NCBI RefSeq assembly: GCF_000013445.1
Contig: NC_007796.1
Location: 3,136,936 to 3,200,935 of the forward strand
From: Methanospirillum hungatei JF-1
GTDB taxonomy: Archaea > Halobacteriota > Methanomicrobia > Methanomicrobiales > Methanospirillaceae
Reading direction: 5' to 3'
Length of the DNA stretch: 64,000 nt
The first letter of the stretch is position 1. Each line of letters starts with the position of its first letter. This document shows positions 43,501 to 53,068 of this stretch, one piece after another. A model generated the notes under the pieces. The model saw only the letters and a list, made by a program, of their open reading frames with translations. It had not been told where the DNA came from and searched no databases. A program made the position numbers and the translations under genes.

Positions 43501-43584
43501 CGTTGAGGGAGGGATTTGAACCCCCGAGTCCCAAGGGACACAGGGTTAGCAACCCTGCGCCATACCTGGCTTGGCTACCTCAAC
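43501..43584 (-). tRNA. tRNA-Ser (anticodon GCT)
   Basis: 84 bases, class II with a long variable arm (TGTCCCTTGGGACTC). The acceptor stem GTTGAGG pairs with CCTCAAC, discriminator G. The anticodon stem CAGGG/CCCTG holds loop TTGCTAA, anticodon GCT. CCA is not encoded. It lies 36 bases before S13 on the same strand and is probably cotranscribed. Confidence 0.96.
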
Positions 43585-43706: not shown

Positions 43707-44675
43707 TCATGGATGCCCTGATCGGCGGATCCCGGCGGCAAGAAGGGCTGATGTGACAAGCGGAAGGGCGATGGTTGCATCACAAAAGCACTGAACTTTC
43801 CTGCAGGTACATGACTCCTTTCCCCATGATACAGCCTCTTCAAAGGTACAGCCGGAAAGTCCTCCATAATGTGGCGTATCTGTTGTATACTGGATCGCAT
43901 AATCATGTCCCCCGCACTCGTGATCATGAATGGACGCAATAACCTGCGTCTGCTGGATGAAGTTTTTCGGAACCCCCCCGCCGACATAAATGACACCAGT
44001 CTTCTGTGCCTTTTCAACATATCCGGTCAGCTGATCTGTATCAGCCAGCTGGTCAATCATGACCAGATGGCCTCCTCTTCGTGCCATGACAAGAGCAATA
44101 CCAATAGACGAGTCACACAAGGCAGGGATGAATATGGGGATATTCAGACGGGCTGCCGTGGCAGTAATTGATCTTCCGGATGGATACTCGTGTGAAAGCC
44201 ATACCCCGAGCTTCCTGATAAAATCTGCAGATGAGCCAGAAAACCCCACAAGTCCCTCTGCAAATTCTGCAATTTTTGCATCAACACCCCTGAACTGATC
44301 CTCATATGCAAAAACATCATAAATCCGGTCAATGCCCTGTCTGAAAAGGTCCTGGTCATCCACCATATGATGCCCGAGATAATGCCTGATCCCTGCATGC
44401 TCACAGATATCGTGAAAAATATTTGCTCCGGTAGAGACCAGCACATCAATAAACCGGTTTTCAAGCAGGGTTATCAGACATTCCTGCATACCCGCAGGGA
44501 CCATGGCACCTGACAGGCCGGCAAATATGGTAACATCCGGATCCTCTATCATCTGACTCCATACCGCAACCGATTCACCAAGTTTCCGCCCCTGAAACCC
44601 AGTCATACTCATCTGTTTCAGGAGAGAATCAACCCGGGTTTCCGGCTTTACCGGCTGCATGGGGTGAAGATTCAT
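43707..44675 (-). CDS. dys: deoxyhypusine synthase
   Basis: Transfers the aminobutyl group of spermidine to a Lys of aIF5A, the first step of hypusine formation. 322 residues. FAGLSGAMVPAGM, STGANIFHDICEH and the active-site region EEAVSWGKES with Lys286 as the likely imine-forming residue. The C-terminus is Cys-rich (CTCRKVQCFC), unusual but after the active site. SpeD and SpeE at 28838-30120 supply the spermidine. Confidence 0.94.
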   Translation of the reverse strand: MNLHPMQPVKPETRVDSLLKQMSMTGFQGRKLGESVAVWSQMIEDPDVTIFAGLSGAMVPAGMQECLITLLENRFIDVLVSTGANIFHDICEHAGIRHYLGHHMVDDQDLFRQGIDRIYDVFAYEDQFRGVDAKIAEFAEGLVGFSGSSADFIRKLGVWLSHEYPSGRSITATAARLNIPIFIPALCDSSIGIALVMARRGGHLVMIDQLADTDQLTGYVEKAQKTGVIYVGGGVPKNFIQQTQVIASIHDHECGGHDYAIQYTTDTPHYGGLSGCTFEEAVSWGKESCTCRKVQCFCDATIALPLVTSALLAAGIRRSGHP

Positions 44676-44848: not shown

Positions 44849-45628
44849 CTATAACGCCCGGATAAGGGATTCCCGGGTAACGATTCCGATAACTTTCCCA
44901 TTATCTGTGACAGGGATGCTGCTTATGTTCTTTGAAAGCATCTTTGACACAACTTCCGGGATCGTTGCACTCTTTTCAACACTCATAACCGGAGAACTCA
45001 TAATATCCCTGACCAGAATATTACGTATCTGATGTTCCTGGTGCCGGTCATCAACTGCTTCACGGAATTTGGTAAGAGCAACAGCAACATCGGTCTCAGA
45101 GACCAGTCCTGCGATCTTGTTGTCAGCCATGACAATGTATCTGGCAATCTTCTCATCAACCATCTTCCGGCGGAGATGAACCATCCGTTCTCCGGCCTCA
45201 ATTACATGGTGAGGCTCAGTGACCGAGGAGAGGTCTCCTTCTGGGACCATCTTAGCGAGTAAGTCTCCATATGCCACCTGTCCGACAATCTTGTTGTCTT
45301 CATTGTACACAACAGCCAGTTTTGCCTGGTTCTGAAGAAGCGGAATCAGGACGTCGATCTCCTGGTCCTCATATACAATGGTAAATTCGGTGTCAATGGT
45401 ATTGGAGACGTGGATCGCGGTTGGTGCAACTTCAGAGCTGTGTCTGGCACCAAGTTTTTCAACTATCTTCTGACGGGATACTGTCCCGACCACTTCATCG
45501 TGGTGAAGTACCACGAGGGGATCAAGTCCGGTATCAAGCATTTTATCCAGGGCATCGGTGACCGGAGCAGACTTTGCTACCGTAACCGGTTTTGCCATCA
45601 CGTCTCGTACAAGTATGGTATTGGTCAT
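44849..45628 (-). CDS. CBS-domain protein
   Basis: 259 residues made almost wholly of CBS repeats (about four, or two Bateman modules): VRDVMAKPVTVAKSAPVTD at the start and VRDIMSSPVMSVEKSATIPE near 200. No catalytic or DNA-binding domain. CBS pairs bind adenine nucleotides or SAM and act as energy sensors in other proteins. The start overlaps the previous gene (ATGA). Last of three tightly linked CBS genes. Confidence 0.9.
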   Translation of the reverse strand: MTNTILVRDVMAKPVTVAKSAPVTDALDKMLDTGLDPLVVLHHDEVVGTVSRQKIVEKLGARHSSEVAPTAIHVSNTIDTEFTIVYEDQEIDVLIPLLQNQAKLAVVYNEDNKIVGQVAYGDLLAKMVPEGDLSSVTEPHHVIEAGERMVHLRRKMVDEKIARYIVMADNKIAGLVSETDVAVALTKFREAVDDRHQEHQIRNILVRDIMSSPVMSVEKSATIPEVVSKMLSKNISSIPVTDNGKVIGIVTRESLIRAL

Positions 45629-46383
45629 TGAACCACTTCCCGTATTATGTCATCTCTGGTAATTATTCCTTTTATGCCGTTCCCGCCAGAGATTATCACA
45701 CTCTGACAGGCAGTCTCTAACATGACCGCCACGGCTTCTCTGGTTCTCGCTGTCTCAGGAAGAGACGGGATTATCGGCCTCATCATCCCTGCTGCGGTAC
45801 CAGACCCCGCATTTTCAGGGTTATCTACATAAAAGGCAAGATCACTTTCGGTAATAATCCCGACCGCTCCTCCATCATCAACAACGATTACTGCCCCTGC
45901 TCCTTTTTTCATGAGATCAACCACATGCACCGGGGAGTGTTCCGGGGTGACCATTGCAGGTTCATGCATTATCTCATGGACCGGAATATCCAGTTGTGCG
46001 ACCAGATGTGAGCGCAAAATGTCAGTCCTGGTCAGAATGCCCAGAACCATCCCCTGATCAATAACCGGTGCTCCCGAGATCTCATGACTGACCAGGAGGA
46101 GGAGCGCATCACGGATGCTGCTATCTGGGGATAAACTCACCAGATCAGTACTCATCACCTGACTCAGGGGGGCACTGTCCATCTTCCGATACCGCCAGTC
46201 TGGATCATTCTTCCGCAGACGAAACCCGATATCCTTCTTTGTGATGATTCCTCGTGCGCGACCTTCATCAACAACAAGAACCCTGGATATCTTATGCCTG
46301 AGCATCAGATTTCGTGCATGTGAGACGGTATCACCCGGCTTTGCGGCATGGACCGGTGTAGACATCAGATCTGAAACCAGCAT
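45625..46383 (-). CDS. CBS-domain protein
   Basis: 252 residues, about four CBS repeats: VSDLMSTPVHAAKPGDTVS, PLSQVMSTDLVSLSPDSS, VHEIMHEPAMVTPEHSPVH and a divergent fourth around MMRPIIPSLPETARTRE. Start chosen at the ATG 46383, 7 bases after AGGAG; a GTG one codon earlier is possible. Stand-alone sensor or adaptor by appearance. Confidence 0.9.
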   Translation of the reverse strand: MLVSDLMSTPVHAAKPGDTVSHARNLMLRHKISRVLVVDEGRARGIITKKDIGFRLRKNDPDWRYRKMDSAPLSQVMSTDLVSLSPDSSIRDALLLLVSHEISGAPVIDQGMVLGILTRTDILRSHLVAQLDIPVHEIMHEPAMVTPEHSPVHVVDLMKKGAGAVIVVDDGGAVGIITESDLAFYVDNPENAGSGTAAGMMRPIIPSLPETARTREAVAVMLETACQSVIISGGNGIKGIITRDDIIREVVQ

Positions 46384-46386
46384 CAC

Positions 46387-47262
46387 TTATCTCCTGTCAC
46401 CATTCACCGGTGAGAACGCCCTGACCAGATCAAACTCTGTGACCAGACCCACCAGTCTGCTTTGATCTATCACTGGCAGAGCACCGACCTTCTTTGCCAT
46501 CATGGCTCGTGCTGCATCGGTCACGGTTGCATCAGGATCGGTTGTGAACAGGTTCCCGCTTAACAGATCACGGACCGGGATGTTCATGACCTCTGCGACA
46601 TCCCCGGTGACCAGTTTTTCAAAAACTCGTCCGGTCCCGATGTACCGCACGATGTCGGTTGCAGTGATTATCCCGAATAACACATCATTTTTCACAATGG
46701 GCAGACGTCTGAACTGGTGTTCTGTCATTACCTTGGTAACAGTCGAGAGCGGACAGTCCGGCTGTTGAACCAGGAGAGAGCGGGTCATAACGCTCTCAAC
46801 CGGAGTAGCGGCATGTGACCGGCACAGGATCTTCAGTACGTCCCGCTCGGTGACGATGCCATTGAGCACCCCATATTCATCAACAATCGGAATGCCTCCA
46901 ATACGATCACGAAGAATGATATCAAGTGCTTCATTCAGCGTTGCATCAGGATGGAGGGTTCTGACATCAGTCTTCATGATCTTGCTGACACTTTCATTGA
47001 TTGCTGCGAGGAAATTCCCATCATGCTTGACATTGATGAGATTGAAGAGCTCACCACCGCCAAGAAAATCAATGACATCCCGTGCAGTAATAATTCCTTT
47101 CAGCCGATGAGTCCCCGGGTCTACTATAGGCAGTCTGCGAAATCCCCATTGGGTAAGGGTTTCAATTGCTCCAAAGATCCGCATGGTAGGCGGGGCTGAG
47201 ATCACTTTCGAGGTAGCTATCGAAAGAACGGTCCTGTTGTCATGGTCATGATGTGAATTCAT
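46387..47262 (-). CDS. CBS-domain protein
   Basis: 291 residues, about four CBS repeats: ATSKVISAPPTMRIFG, VSKIMKTDVRTLHPDATLN, VESVMTRSLLVQQPDCPLS and VRDLLSGNLFTTDPDATVT. An N-terminal HDHDNR stretch could bind metal but is too short to call. First of the three-gene CBS operon, with a possible leader hairpin upstream. Confidence 0.9.
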   Translation of the reverse strand: MNSHHDHDNRTVLSIATSKVISAPPTMRIFGAIETLTQWGFRRLPIVDPGTHRLKGIITARDVIDFLGGGELFNLINVKHDGNFLAAINESVSKIMKTDVRTLHPDATLNEALDIILRDRIGGIPIVDEYGVLNGIVTERDVLKILCRSHAATPVESVMTRSLLVQQPDCPLSTVTKVMTEHQFRRLPIVKNDVLFGIITATDIVRYIGTGRVFEKLVTGDVAEVMNIPVRDLLSGNLFTTDPDATVTDAARAMMAKKVGALPVIDQSRLVGLVTEFDLVRAFSPVNGDRR

Positions 47263-47300
47263 GAGATACCAGCCTTACGGTTACACAGTAAATACGTCCG

Positions 47301-47343
47301 GACATTCTGCCGGGAATGAACGATCAGAAAGCCGGCAGATGTC
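47301..47343 (-). promoter_or_regulatory. long inverted repeat in the CBS operon leader/promoter
   Basis: GACAT-t-CTGCCGG (47301-47313) pairs with CCGGCAGATGTC (47332-47343): 12 bp with one bulged base and an 18-base loop. It ends about 40 bases before the first CBS start. It could be an mRNA leader hairpin or a dyad operator at the transcription start. Confidence 0.6.
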
Positions 47344-47358
47344 AGGATTCAGGTCAAA

Positions 47359-47380
47359 AATTTATACCTCCGGGTTTATA
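47359..47380 (-). promoter_or_regulatory. two TATA-like boxes for the CBS operon
   Basis: On the minus strand TATAAATT (47359-47366) and TATAAAC (47374-47380). Starts about 25 bases downstream would fall inside or just before the inverted repeat at 47301-47343. Confidence 0.45.
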
Positions 47381-47474
47381 GGTGCCCGGATTCTCAAACA
47401 TTCGGATGAGATTGGAATGTGCCCGATACAGGAACATACAGCTTCTGGCAGAAGACCCTGTCAGCTGCTGTACA

Positions 47475-48041
47475 TTACAACCGGTCGTCTTCCATACAGT
47501 TCGGACAGATGAGGGAACCGTCTATACTGGTCAGTTCATCTGACATCTGGCCGCATCTGCTACACATCCCTGAACTAATGTCGTCAGCACGATTAATTAC
47601 CACGAGTTCGCCCATTAGTTCATTAATCTCGGTACTCACTGCAACGATATCCCGGACACTCACAATACCGATCACAACACCTTTGTCATTGATGATTGGC
47701 AGTCTTCTGACCCGGTTTCGGATCATCAGGTGAGCGGCATCCTCAACGGTTTTATCTGTACCAATTGTGATCAGGGGTGAAGTCATGATCTCACTGACAT
47801 GGACTTCACTCGGGCGCAGATCCCGGGCGACAACCTTGCAGTTTATATCCTGCTCGGTAACTATCCCCACGGCAACGCCATCCCGAAGGACAATACAACT
47901 GCCTGATGGATCCTTGCTGCACATTTTCCGTGCTGCATGCGCTACCGTTGCATGATAATCAATAGTCTTGGGGTTCGTTCGCATTATTTCCCGCACTGGG
48001 ACCTTGGTCTCGAGCTGGATCGTGTCACTGTTGTAGCTCAT
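47475..48041 (-). CDS. CBS-domain protein with C-terminal zinc ribbon
   Basis: 188 residues. Two CBS repeats (VREIMRTNPKTIDYHATVA, VSEIMTSPLITIGTDKTVE) are followed by a short zinc ribbon with CSRCGQM and CPNC. The ribbon suggests contact with nucleic acid or protein. Start chosen at ATG 48041, 5 bases after GGTGA; a GTG at 48050 is the alternative. It is upstream of the CBS operon on the same strand, with a 212-base gap. Confidence 0.88.
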   Translation of the reverse strand: MSYNSDTIQLETKVPVREIMRTNPKTIDYHATVAHAARKMCSKDPSGSCIVLRDGVAVGIVTEQDINCKVVARDLRPSEVHVSEIMTSPLITIGTDKTVEDAAHLMIRNRVRRLPIINDKGVVIGIVSVRDIVAVSTEINELMGELVVINRADDISSGMCSRCGQMSDELTSIDGSLICPNCMEDDRL

Positions 48042-48256
48042 TACTGTCACCTCTCGGTTTCCCGGGCAGATGCATTGCTCTGATACTTATCGGGATCGGG
48101 TATTAATCCATCGCTCCGGTGACCGGTATGTCAAATATGAAGATCCGAGACAGGTGGGATGACAACAATAATAATACTCCCTGATCATAACCATGTAGAC
48201 AGGCAGGCTTTTCACAGGCCTGATTTCAAAAAAACAAGCCCAGGGACGTAACCACA
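48042..48256. promoter_or_regulatory. divergent spacer between zinc-ribbon CBS gene and the GTPase gene
   Basis: 215 bases with no gene seen. On the minus side GGATTAATACC and on the plus side ACAATAATAATAC are AT-rich and could be promoters. An imperfect repeat of CAGGC (CAGGCAGGC ... CAGGCCTG) is near 48196-48220. Confidence 0.4.
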
Positions 48257-48886
48257 ATGGGAATAAGCCAGACTCTCTCGCGAATCCTTTCAAATCTTTT
48301 CCAGAACAAGACCGCCCGTATAGGTATTTATGGCCCTCCAAATGCAGGGAAAACCACCCTTGCAAACAGGATCGCTGAAGACTGGTCAGGCACGGTATCC
48401 GGAACAGCCAGTGAGGTGCCACATGAGACCAGACGGGCAGTCAGGACAGGAAATATCACCATCACAGGCTCAAACGGCCGGTCTATCACGATTGATATCG
48501 TCGATACACCCGGTGTTACCACCAGGGTTGATTATAAGGAGTTTATCGAGTACGGCATTGAGCGGGAGGATGCCATCACCCGTGCACGCGAGGCTACCGA
48601 AGGCGTCGCAGAGGCCATGCACTGGCTTCGTGAAGATATTGACGGGGTTATTTACATGATTGACGCGACCTTGGACCCGTTTGCACAGGTAAATATCATG
48701 ATGATCGGGATTATTGAAAGCAGAAAACTGCCGGTGATCATTGCAGCAAACAAGATTGACCTTCCTGATGCGGCACCCCACCGGATACGCACGGCCTTCC
48801 CCCAGCACCCCGTCATACCGGTTTCGTGTCTTGATGGTACCCAGATTGAAAATCTCTATGAAGAAATGGTCCGGCATTTCAGGTGA
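48257..48886 (+). CDS. Era-like small GTPase (ArvA/OapA-like)
   Basis: 209 residues. A short amphipathic N-terminus (MGISQTLSRILSNLF) could touch membrane. The G domain has P-loop GPPNAGKTT (26-34), DTPGV with Asp83 (G3), and AANKIDLP (G4). It is the first of three genes with DUF2073 and DUF2072 zinc-ribbon proteins, a set conserved in euryarchaea. In haloarchaea a small GTPase of this kind (ArvA/OapA) was reported to drive extracellular vesicle formation. That role here is inference from synteny and family. Confidence 0.82.
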   Translation: MGISQTLSRILSNLFQNKTARIGIYGPPNAGKTTLANRIAEDWSGTVSGTASEVPHETRRAVRTGNITITGSNGRSITIDIVDTPGVTTRVDYKEFIEYGIEREDAITRAREATEGVAEAMHWLREDIDGVIYMIDATLDPFAQVNIMMIGIIESRKLPVIIAANKIDLPDAAPHRIRTAFPQHPVIPVSCLDGTQIENLYEEMVRHFR

Positions 48887-48891
48887 AAAAC

Positions 48892-49254
48892 ATGCAGGGT
48901 GTACGAATAGATCTCATATCAGAAGAACGGCTCGCACAGATGCCTTCAATGGAAAAGATACGACTTATCCTGGATAATGTCCGTGATGGCACCATCGTCA
49001 TTCTTGAAAGCGGCCTCACACCCGATGAACAATCCGTACTTATTGAGATGACCATGCAGGAGATTCTGCCTGACCGGTTTTCAGGAATTGAGATTGAGAC
49101 CTATCCTTCCAAGCAGCGATCCGCAGGTGTGTTCTCCAGGTTTATCAGGGGAGATGAAGAGAACCGGAGACTTACCGTTATCGGTCCTGCAAATCAACTC
49201 AAGATGATACGAAAAGATCGTGGTCTTATCAGCGCCTGGATATCAGGGAGGTGA
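48892..49254 (+). CDS. DUF2073 protein (ArvB/OapB-like)
   Basis: 120 residues, soluble. QGVRIDLISEERLAQMPSMEKI and TIVILESGLTPDEQSVLIEMTM are the family blocks. Function unknown except as partner of the small GTPase. The ATG at 48892 stands 6 bases after AGGTGA, which itself overlaps the stop of the GTPase gene; a GTG at 48883 is possible. Three bases before the next gene. Confidence 0.82.
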   Translation: MQGVRIDLISEERLAQMPSMEKIRLILDNVRDGTIVILESGLTPDEQSVLIEMTMQEILPDRFSGIEIETYPSKQRSAGVFSRFIRGDEENRRLTVIGPANQLKMIRKDRGLISAWISGR

Positions 49255-49257
49255 ACC

Positions 49258-49641
49258 ATGCCTCATCGCTGCGCCGGATGCAAGACCCTGTTTCCTGATG
49301 CACGCCACCTCAGGGACGGCTGCCCGGTATGTGGCTGTGGCAAGTTTGTCTTTGAGACCGGCAGAAAGAGAGCACAAAAAAATGAACCCCTGCAAAACCA
49401 TGCACCTGAAACACCGGCTCCTGCACCTGTAACCACGACCAGAGAGCACACAGACGTTGAACTAGAAGAACCGAAGCAGGATTCTGATTCCATTGAAAGT
49501 ATCAGAATTCTCGAACCCGGCAGATATGACCTGAACCTGTCCAGACTGATCGAAACTGATGACCGGGTCGTACGGGTTGGATCCGAAGATACGTACCATC
49601 TTGATTTACACTCGATGATACGGCAGAAAAAGAAAAAATAA
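49258..49641 (+). CDS. DUF2072 zinc-ribbon protein (ArvC/OapC-like)
   Basis: 127 residues. N-terminal zinc ribbon HRCAGCKTLF ... GCPVCGCGKF, a Pro/Thr/Glu-rich linker (about 45-80), then a short conserved C-terminal part (SIRILEPGRYDLNLSRLIE ... YHLDLHSMI) ending in Lys-rich RQKKKK. It has a GGGAGGTGA ribosome site. Third member of the GTPase set; the basic tail may bind nucleic acid or lipid head groups. Confidence 0.82.
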   Translation: MPHRCAGCKTLFPDARHLRDGCPVCGCGKFVFETGRKRAQKNEPLQNHAPETPAPAPVTTTREHTDVELEEPKQDSDSIESIRILEPGRYDLNLSRLIETDDRVVRVGSEDTYHLDLHSMIRQKKKK

Positions 49642-51529: not shown

Positions 51530-51782
51530 TAATATTCATGATGCTTCGAAAACCCTCGGATCCTGCATCATCACAGACCACGCTGGTGACCGTTTTCAGG
51601 TCAACCTCAACAGTTCCCCGGTTCATGGTGCAAAAGGCACGAGCGGGGGATGGGACTTCTCTTCCGGGGATACCAAACCGTACCGAGTGAACGCAAAACC
51701 GGCACTTCTCAACATCTTCCCGTTTATCTGGAAGGCAGGCCACCGTTCCCTTCTCAACCGGGAGGGTTCGTATCGCTCTCAT
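51522..51782 (-). CDS. small Cys-rich protein of unknown function
   Basis: 86 residues. Five Cys, including an [10 protein letters not shown] pair and AFCTMNR, suggest a zinc or iron site. The rest is not recognised. Its start overlaps the stop of the coiled-coil gene by 4 bases (ATGA), which strongly supports it as a real gene. It converges on cobQ with an 8-base overlap. Confidence 0.6.
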
Positions 51783-53068
51783 GACTCTTCACCAGGGAGC
51801 ATCAAATCCATCTCTTCTTCGGTGAATTCAGAGAATTTTTTCCTGAGCTCTTCCAGGATCGATCTCTGTTTTTCTTTCAGGGAGGAGAGACGCTCTTTTC
51901 TCTTCTCCTCTTCCTGGTTCAGTTCATCAATCCTCTTTTCTGCTTCCGTAATAGTCTGGGTGATATGATTTTTCTGTTCAAGGAGAACGTTCCCTTCAAG
52001 ATCCTGTTTCTTTCTTTTCAGATCTTCTGAAAGTGTGTGCAGACTTATGGATATCTCACCGAATTTTTTTGTATACTCTTCAGCGTTCGTAAAAAGATGT
52101 TTCTCAAACGAGTTCTTTGCCTGTACGATTCCTGACTCAAACAGAGTAAAGAGGGGCTTTGCCGTCAGGGATATCAGCCGTGCAATCTCATCGTCATCGC
52201 GCCGGGGTGATGATGCAGCCTGGATGAGATCCTCCATGTTCTTCTCATCCACCGGTTTTGCCTGTTCCTGGAAGGCTTTGACTCCCCGTTTCCACACCGG
52301 AAGAGCAACTCGGATCTGGGACTCCCATGTTTCCCTGGCTTTTTCCAACTGCTCCCTGATCTGTCCGGTCTCCTCTTCAAGGCGCAGATATGAGGCATAG
52401 GAATCTGAAGCAAGCAGACGTTCCAGCTCTGAACCCGCCTTCTGGAGATCTGTCTTCAATTCAGATAACCGTGCTTCAAATTTTTTCTCTTCTGCACCTG
52501 CCTGCGCCTCCTCTTCTATCAGGGCATCCCGGTTGTGGAGAAGGGCACGCATTTCTGCAATGTGCATGAGCCGTTCTCGCGAAATCCGTATGATCTCGGT
52601 CATCCGGTTCAGTTCATGGCCCATATGGTCCAACGTTTGTTTAAAGACCTTGACTTCATCCGGATAGAGATGGTGGAGATACCTGCCCGGCCCCCGGTAC
52701 GCCTTGAAACACCCGTTGATAAGTCCGGCGACTTCCCGGTAAAAGACCTCATCATCCTCGGAGAACTCCCCCTCAAGTTCAGCCTCTATCTTTTTACAGA
52801 ACTGGGGGAGTGCATGACGGTTGACCTGTTCCACCTTGTGGTGATGTGGCTCGTCTGATGATTCTTCACCAAACTCTGTCAGAAGCTGGTGAAGATCCTG
52901 TTCAAGTTTCAGTAATCGTTCACGTGAACTCGTGGATGCGGCATTCCGACGGGAGATACAGCCCGCTTCCATCTCATCAAGCCAGGCAGGGAGATCTTCA
53001 AGTGATATCGCTGATCTTGGTGCTTTTTCAGATGTTTTGCTGAATATTTTTTTTATTGATTCAAACAT
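51779..53068 (-). CDS. coiled-coil protein of unknown function
   Basis: 429 residues, no membrane segment or known domain recognised. A long Glu/Lys/Arg-rich coiled coil spans most of the second half (about 185-260 and 340-420) with heptad-like Leu spacing. The first 130 residues are acidic. It lies 11 bases after nadM on the same strand and overlaps the Cys-rich small gene, so the four genes larB-nadM-this-small form one transcript. It might be a scaffold; nothing else can be said. Confidence 0.75.
   Translation of the reverse strand: MFESIKKIFSKTSEKAPRSAISLEDLPAWLDEMEAGCISRRNAASTSSRERLLKLEQDLHQLLTEFGEESSDEPHHHKVEQVNRHALPQFCKKIEAELEGEFSEDDEVFYREVAGLINGCFKAYRGPGRYLHHLYPDEVKVFKQTLDHMGHELNRMTEIIRISRERLMHIAEMRALLHNRDALIEEEAQAGAEEKKFEARLSELKTDLQKAGSELERLLASDSYASYLRLEEETGQIREQLEKARETWESQIRVALPVWKRGVKAFQEQAKPVDEKNMEDLIQAASSPRRDDDEIARLISLTAKPLFTLFESGIVQAKNSFEKHLFTNAEEYTKKFGEISISLHTLSEDLKRKKQDLEGNVLLEQKNHITQTITEAEKRIDELNQEEEKRKERLSSLKEKQRSILEELRKKFSEFTEEEMDLMLPGEES

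Follow-up and report, generated by a model that had tools for sequence, protein, structure and literature searches.

The three genes at positions 48257-49641 (+) of the analyzed window form a tight operon that is, by its sequences, a genuine and unexceptional member of a family that was described recently, the Methanospirillum orthologue of ArvABC. The window is a stretch of 64,000 nucleotides (3,136,936-3,200,935) of the Methanospirillum hungatei JF-1 genome, a single contig of 3,544,738 bases. Two facts are new here and are the most useful outcome of the analysis: an ancestral pairing of arvABC with a cluster of CBS-domain genes that we deduce to be a ribosome-hibernation cluster, and a natural loss of arvB in Methanoregula. 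We hold with moderate confidence that arvABC encodes a vesiculating GTPase system, in which a GTP-switched, membrane-inserting ArvA would be tuned by ArvB and ArvC, and that it is probably used with dormancy.

Table 1. Features of the arvABC locus and its surroundings, in window positions
Feature	Position	Strand	Description
arvA (oapA)	48257..48886	+	ATG start, 209 aa; small single-domain GTPase with a short amphipathic N-terminal helix
arvB (oapB, DUF2073)	48883..49254	+	GTG start overlapping the arvA stop, 123 aa; PF09846
arvC (oapC, DUF2072)	49258..49641	+	ATG start, 127 aa; PF09845
arvC product architecture			Cys4 zinc ribbon at the N-terminus, a variable linker, then a small beta domain at the C-terminus and a tail rich in Lys
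Divergent intergenic region	48051..48256	no strand	206 bases; presumably with the promoters of arvABC and the CBS array
CBS1-ZnR	47475..48050	-	Two CBS domains and a Cys4 ribbon at the C-terminus; conserved in its head-to-head position beside arvA
CBS2	46387..47262	-	Four-CBS; orthologue-level match to CBS chain 9znf_5 (1.5e-65)
CBS3	45625..46386	-	Four-CBS; best match CBS chain 9zni_6 (1.3e-39)
CBS4	44849..45628	-	Four-CBS; best match CBS chains 9zni_7/9zng_7 (9e-32)
Deoxyhypusine synthase gene	43707..44675	-	Adjoins the CBS array
tRNA gene	43501..43584	-	On the CBS-array side
S4-domain protein and RNA polymerase subunit D genes			Beyond the tRNA on the array side
SUI1/aIF1 gene		opposite to arvC	After arvC
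Coiled-coil-like protein	51779..53068	-	429 aa; no Pfam match

The arvA and arvB genes overlap by 4 bases (GTGA), and arvB and arvC are separated by 3. An earlier note on this DNA had described a triad of small GTPase, DUF2073 protein and zinc ribbon and had equated it with ArvABC (OapABC) on the strength of the gene order. The open reading frames lie exactly where that note placed them, and the identity was borne out by the conserved order and by full-length matches in Pfam: ArvB matched PF09846 (OapB) over 104/104 model positions with an E value of 3.6e-45, above the curated cut-off, and ArvC matched PF09845 (OapC) over 133/133 positions with an E value of 4e-35. OapC lies within two genes downstream, as the ArvABC/OapABC set requires, and the four cysteines of its ribbon (5, 8, 22 and 25) are invariant or nearly so. 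ArvA matched PF01926 (1.8e-13), TIGR00231 small_GTP (3.2e-15) and the Arf model PF00025 (3.6e-8) in Pfam/NCBIfam. It gave one match in its own genome, and the triad is single-copy. We regard the membership of the triad in the ArvABC family as settled at the level of sequence.

ArvA orthologues and their surroundings were gathered from close relatives and across the whole phylum. OapB was found in 158 of the 165 good genomes of the phylum. ArvA was located directly upstream of OapB at every OapB locus fetched, and ArvC directly downstream in nearly all loci outside family f8, in which ArvC lies elsewhere in the genome (one genome checked). This gene order is far beyond chance. Identity of the window ArvA to its orthologues across the phylum was 51-94%, the closest named relative found being Methanospirillum stamsii (92%). 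The ArvA tree matched the taxonomy, with the haloarchaeal proteins joining those of Methanomicrobiales (99/99 support); arvABC has been inherited vertically. Six genomes of genus g30 (G061, G070, G079, G088, G096 and G102) were without ArvA and ArvB, and ArvC was also absent from the four of them searched for it, while CBS1-ZnR was kept in five of the six. An incomplete genome of the same genus (G108) carries the whole head-to-head arvABC/CBS locus.

The window ArvA contains the GTPase motifs GPPNAGKTT (P-loop), DTPG (DTPGVTT) and NKID, and in a 54-row alignment GPPxxGKTT, D-x-P-G and NKxD were invariant or nearly so, with D83, P85 and G86 invariant. The catalytic Gln of Arf switch II (DxGGQ/DxxGQ) is absent, with DTPG instead. 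ArvA is therefore not an Arf by definition, and an Arf mechanism is an analogy, on which ArvA may nevertheless work like one. The best-scoring named GTPase models in NCBIfam were Der and Era, of the TrmE-Era-EngA type, and the nearest solved chain was also Der, but the scores fell far below the equivalog cut-offs (Der, 49 bits against 307; Era, 47 against 237; YlqF, 33 against 208), and the HflX cut-off was likewise missed by a wide margin. A search by sequence for solved homologues of ArvA or ArvB found none. Judged by length and motifs, the genome's other PF01926 proteins resemble DRG, a NOG1-like protein, three FeoB, YchF, two dynamin-like proteins, IF5B, EF-1A and EF-2, plus one short unassigned protein. 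In a tree including those that could be placed, the ArvA orthologues split from the DRG, NOG1-like, YchF, FeoB, IF and EF GTPases with 89/93 support and on long branches. Cut-offs and tree together rule out ArvA as a ribosome-assembly GTPase (Era, Der, YlqF or HflX), the placement that the earlier note had named as refuting its vesicle reading.

The amphipathic N-terminus previously proposed for ArvA is supported in the window protein, whose 14-residue hydrophobic moment is 0.67 (z 2.25, p 0.018 against shuffles). Across 55 sequences of the family it is moderate (mean z 1.0, moment peak at 90 degrees per residue), with z above 1.64 in only 14 of the 55 taken singly. The amphipathic stretch comprises the 20-28 residues before the P-loop. 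Methanospirillum has 22 residues ahead of this motif, most others have 26 and the genera without ArvB have 30, and the shifts are mostly by 4 residues, or one helix turn. Methanogen-type helices are mostly strongly basic, and haloarchaeal-type ArvA has 27 or 28 residues before the P-loop and a near-neutral helix.

Divergent from arvABC lies the array of CBS genes, numbered here CBS1-ZnR, CBSx, CBS2, CBS3 and CBS4. In Methanospirillum it is reduced to four genes (44849-48050) by the loss of CBSx, a fourth four-CBS type present in most relatives; tested from locus L087, CBSx best matched chain 9znf_4 (1.3e-36). The four-CBS proteins pair one to one with four different solved CBS chains. Because the entries of the 9znf, 9zni and 9zng chains also share an identical uS15 with 9o17, the 30S of Methanosarcina acetivorans (PMC12605026), we take these chains to be ribosome-bound. 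In a 2026 paper, the CBS modules of a CM-5/4/1/2 cluster are considered likely ribosome-hibernation factors, and CM-1 and CM-5 are reported missing in Methanocorpusculum and Methanomicrobium (PMC13324472). In agreement with this loss pattern, our loci from the two genera were without CBSx and CBS3, and those of Methanocorpusculum (L220-L222, L229, L232 and L235) retained CBS2 and CBS4 only, CBS1-ZnR also being gone. From these matches we deduce that the divergent array is the CM ribosome-hibernation cluster (HibA/Dri-related), from which the Methanospirillum array differs in the missing CBSx, one of four, and in the extra CBS1-ZnR beside arvA. CBSx as an HPF/RaiA-fused HibA was ruled out, as its ORFs carry CBS-like repeats only and leave no room for an HPF domain.

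The pairing of the two gene groups is widespread. In 46 of 47 genomes, which represent 14 families, CBS1-ZnR and OapB are no more than 2.5 kb apart, the exception having the genes on different contigs; in families f8, f9, f12, f22 and f30 they are this close in 0/57 genomes. Array genes were found upstream of arvA in 70 of the 72 named non-haloarchaeal loci; one short contig and one Methanocorpusculum make up the remainder. The named haloarchaeal loci hold the same three genes with Orc1/Cdc6 in the array's place (8/8), the setting to which the Oap proteins owe their name, so that "origin-associated" is a haloarchaeal trait. An origin association of the Methanospirillum operon was rejected, since the genome's sole strong match to Cdc6_C lies 441 kb from it. 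From the orientation of the genes we infer that arvABC and the CBS array may be co-regulated. A shared promoter motif, AAACCTAA, occurred in the divergent region of 5/17 loci, a count reached in 2/200 shuffles, and is weak and suggestive only. The back-to-back arrangement in most relatives suggests that vesicle formation and dormancy are linked. The main text of PMC13324472 does not mention Arv, although its figures or supplements may draw the link, and Mills et al. analyse the genes downstream of arvA (PMC10927574). Our literature search, which covered the running text of papers, found no mention of an arvABC-hibernation link.

Within the window's own family, OapB was absent from 26/26 genomes of genus g5 and 5/5 of genus g12, and present in 38 of the 39 others. 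ArvA was detected in 28 of the 31 genomes of these two genera, and ArvC directly followed ArvA in every case read (loci L103-L107, L181, L188, L195, L200 and L215, among others); named genomes with this arrangement include Methanoregula. Methanoregula and the second genus (g12) have cleanly lost arvB, which constitutes a natural deletion. A diverged, unrecognised ArvB in Methanoregula was ruled out: the gap between arvA and arvC is smaller than about 30 bases, and profile searches of the whole genomes found no hidden copy. The ArvA core is hardly altered in the clade without ArvB, and the handful of sites specific to it (residues 20, 72, 76, 99, 108 and 188 of the window ArvA) is confounded by ancestry. 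Because arvB was lost while arvA and arvC stayed adjacent, ArvB is not essential to the role of ArvA and ArvC there, and Methanoregula offers a natural deletion in which the proposed exchange-factor role of ArvB can be tested.

The predicted structure of ArvB (pLDDT 78, pTM 0.70) gave nothing at an E value of 0.001 or better in a fold search, all matches lying above 0.02. SepF chains recurred among them (3zig, TM 0.55 by target length, E 0.1), as did Alba and IF3-C, also weakly. The model reproduces the published likeness of ArvB to SepF, seen also by Mills et al. (PMC10927574), and this likeness is weak. The ArvC model consists of a confident zinc ribbon and a small beta domain, for which the fold search returned generic zinc ribbons only (E above 0.8) and nothing informative.

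In Haloferax, loss of ArvA is reported to abolish vesicles and its over-expression to raise them 3.5-fold, whereas vesicle numbers fall 3.1-fold without ArvB and rise 1.65-fold without ArvC; the vesicles are enriched in ArvA, carry tRNA and rRNA, and contain FtsZ2 and CetZ proteins (PMC10927574). According to the discoverers of ArvA, no other small GTPase is known to be crucial for making vesicles outside the eukaryotic endomembrane system (PMC10927574). The Haloferax volcanii genes (HVO_3014, 3013 and 3012) come from the three families found here and are arranged identically on one strand, as a single copy; they share the N-terminal amphipathic helix and intact GTPase motifs with those of Methanospirillum. 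The Methanospirillum triad differs in adjoining the CBS array and not Orc1/Cdc6, in an ArvC of 127 aa with a basic tail (228-276 aa and acidic at haloarchaeal-type loci), and in belonging to a sheathed cell. Eukaryotic Arf/Sar proteins are also small GTPases with an N-terminal amphipathic helix and proposed membrane deformation, but they carry DxGGQ in switch II. It is the orthology to Haloferax that makes a vesicle function likely in Methanospirillum. Our literature search found no report of vesicles in Methanospirillum and no test of ArvA outside haloarchaea.

If ArvABC acts in this way, GTP-loaded ArvA would swing out its N-terminal amphipathic helix and embed it in the cytoplasmic membrane's inner leaflet, and clusters of ArvA would bend the membrane into buds. 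To judge from the Haloferax knock-outs, ArvB would promote the active or assembled state of ArvA, and ArvC would restrain it. The divergent orientation with the hibernation cluster suggests that energy limitation or stress would induce or modulate arvABC, and cells silencing their ribosomes would at the same time release membrane and RNA, or reshape the envelope. Vesicles formed inside the sheath would come to lie between the membrane, the sheath and the spacer plugs, or exit at the ends of the filament. Several observations count against the vesicle reading: ArvB can be lost outright, helix amphipathicity is not significant in most single sequences, and retention is near-universal, which exceeds what an optional secretion trait would call for. 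Near-universality and the conserved CBS pairing suggest a wider role coupled to stress or dormancy. The presence of the operon in nearly all of the phylum's methanogens and the stable pairing supply a testable reason for its existence. ArvABC and the CBS proteins might even form one ancestral dormancy programme, in which energy-sensing CBS proteins would silence ribosomes, the divergent GTPase would shed or remodel membrane and perhaps export rRNA and tRNA in vesicles, and CBS1-ZnR would couple both; we consider this wider proposal doubtful but worth entertaining.

The same gene setting can be read in terms of translation. ArvA could be an Era/Der-like TRAFAC GTPase for which ArvB and the zinc ribbon ArvC provide the contact to ribosomes, RNA or hibernation factors, with the Haloferax vesicle phenotype downstream. 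The operon stands head to head with a cluster matching chains solved on ribosomes, and its translational neighbours (deoxyhypusine synthase, tRNA, S4-domain protein, RNA polymerase subunit D and SUI1/aIF1) keep this explanation alive, as do Der and Era as the closest models, the faint IF3-C and Alba matches of ArvB, and the tRNA and rRNA of Haloferax vesicles (PMC10927574). We nevertheless think it unlikely, because the enrichment of ArvA in Haloferax vesicles and the dose-set vesicle number are hard to explain indirectly (PMC10927574), the N-terminal extension of ArvA is an amphipathic helix and not an RNA-binding domain, the Der and Era scores and the ArvB fold matches are poor, and the CBS linkage is missing in haloarchaea and f8, both of which keep arvABC.

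Alternatively, a GTPase with a SepF-like partner might shape or divide the envelope at septa, plugs or the sheath-membrane interface and make no export vesicles. The FtsZ2 and CetZ proteins in Haloferax vesicles (PMC10927574) and the ArvB-SepF resemblance would fit, but that resemblance is not significant, ArvB is without the SepF membrane anchor and is dispensable in Methanoregula, and the available text of the Haloferax study describes no division phenotype (PMC10927574), which makes this quite improbable. We give least credence to the view that the linkage is an inherited accident of gene order without functional meaning, beside an otherwise ordinary ArvABC. The linkage does track family boundaries in an all-or-nothing manner, and is lost in f8, f9, f12, f22, f30 and haloarchaea. 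However, it was kept in 14 families in one orientation while most other neighbours changed, and array gene losses in Methanocorpusculum and Methanospirillum have left arvABC and the array side by side.

An Rfam scan near the locus detected the tRNA only. Elsewhere in the genome (1238584-1242140), two nearby large GTPases (L121 and L122) have GxxxxGKS P-loops and are dynamin-like in appearance, and the genome may thus hold another membrane-remodelling system.
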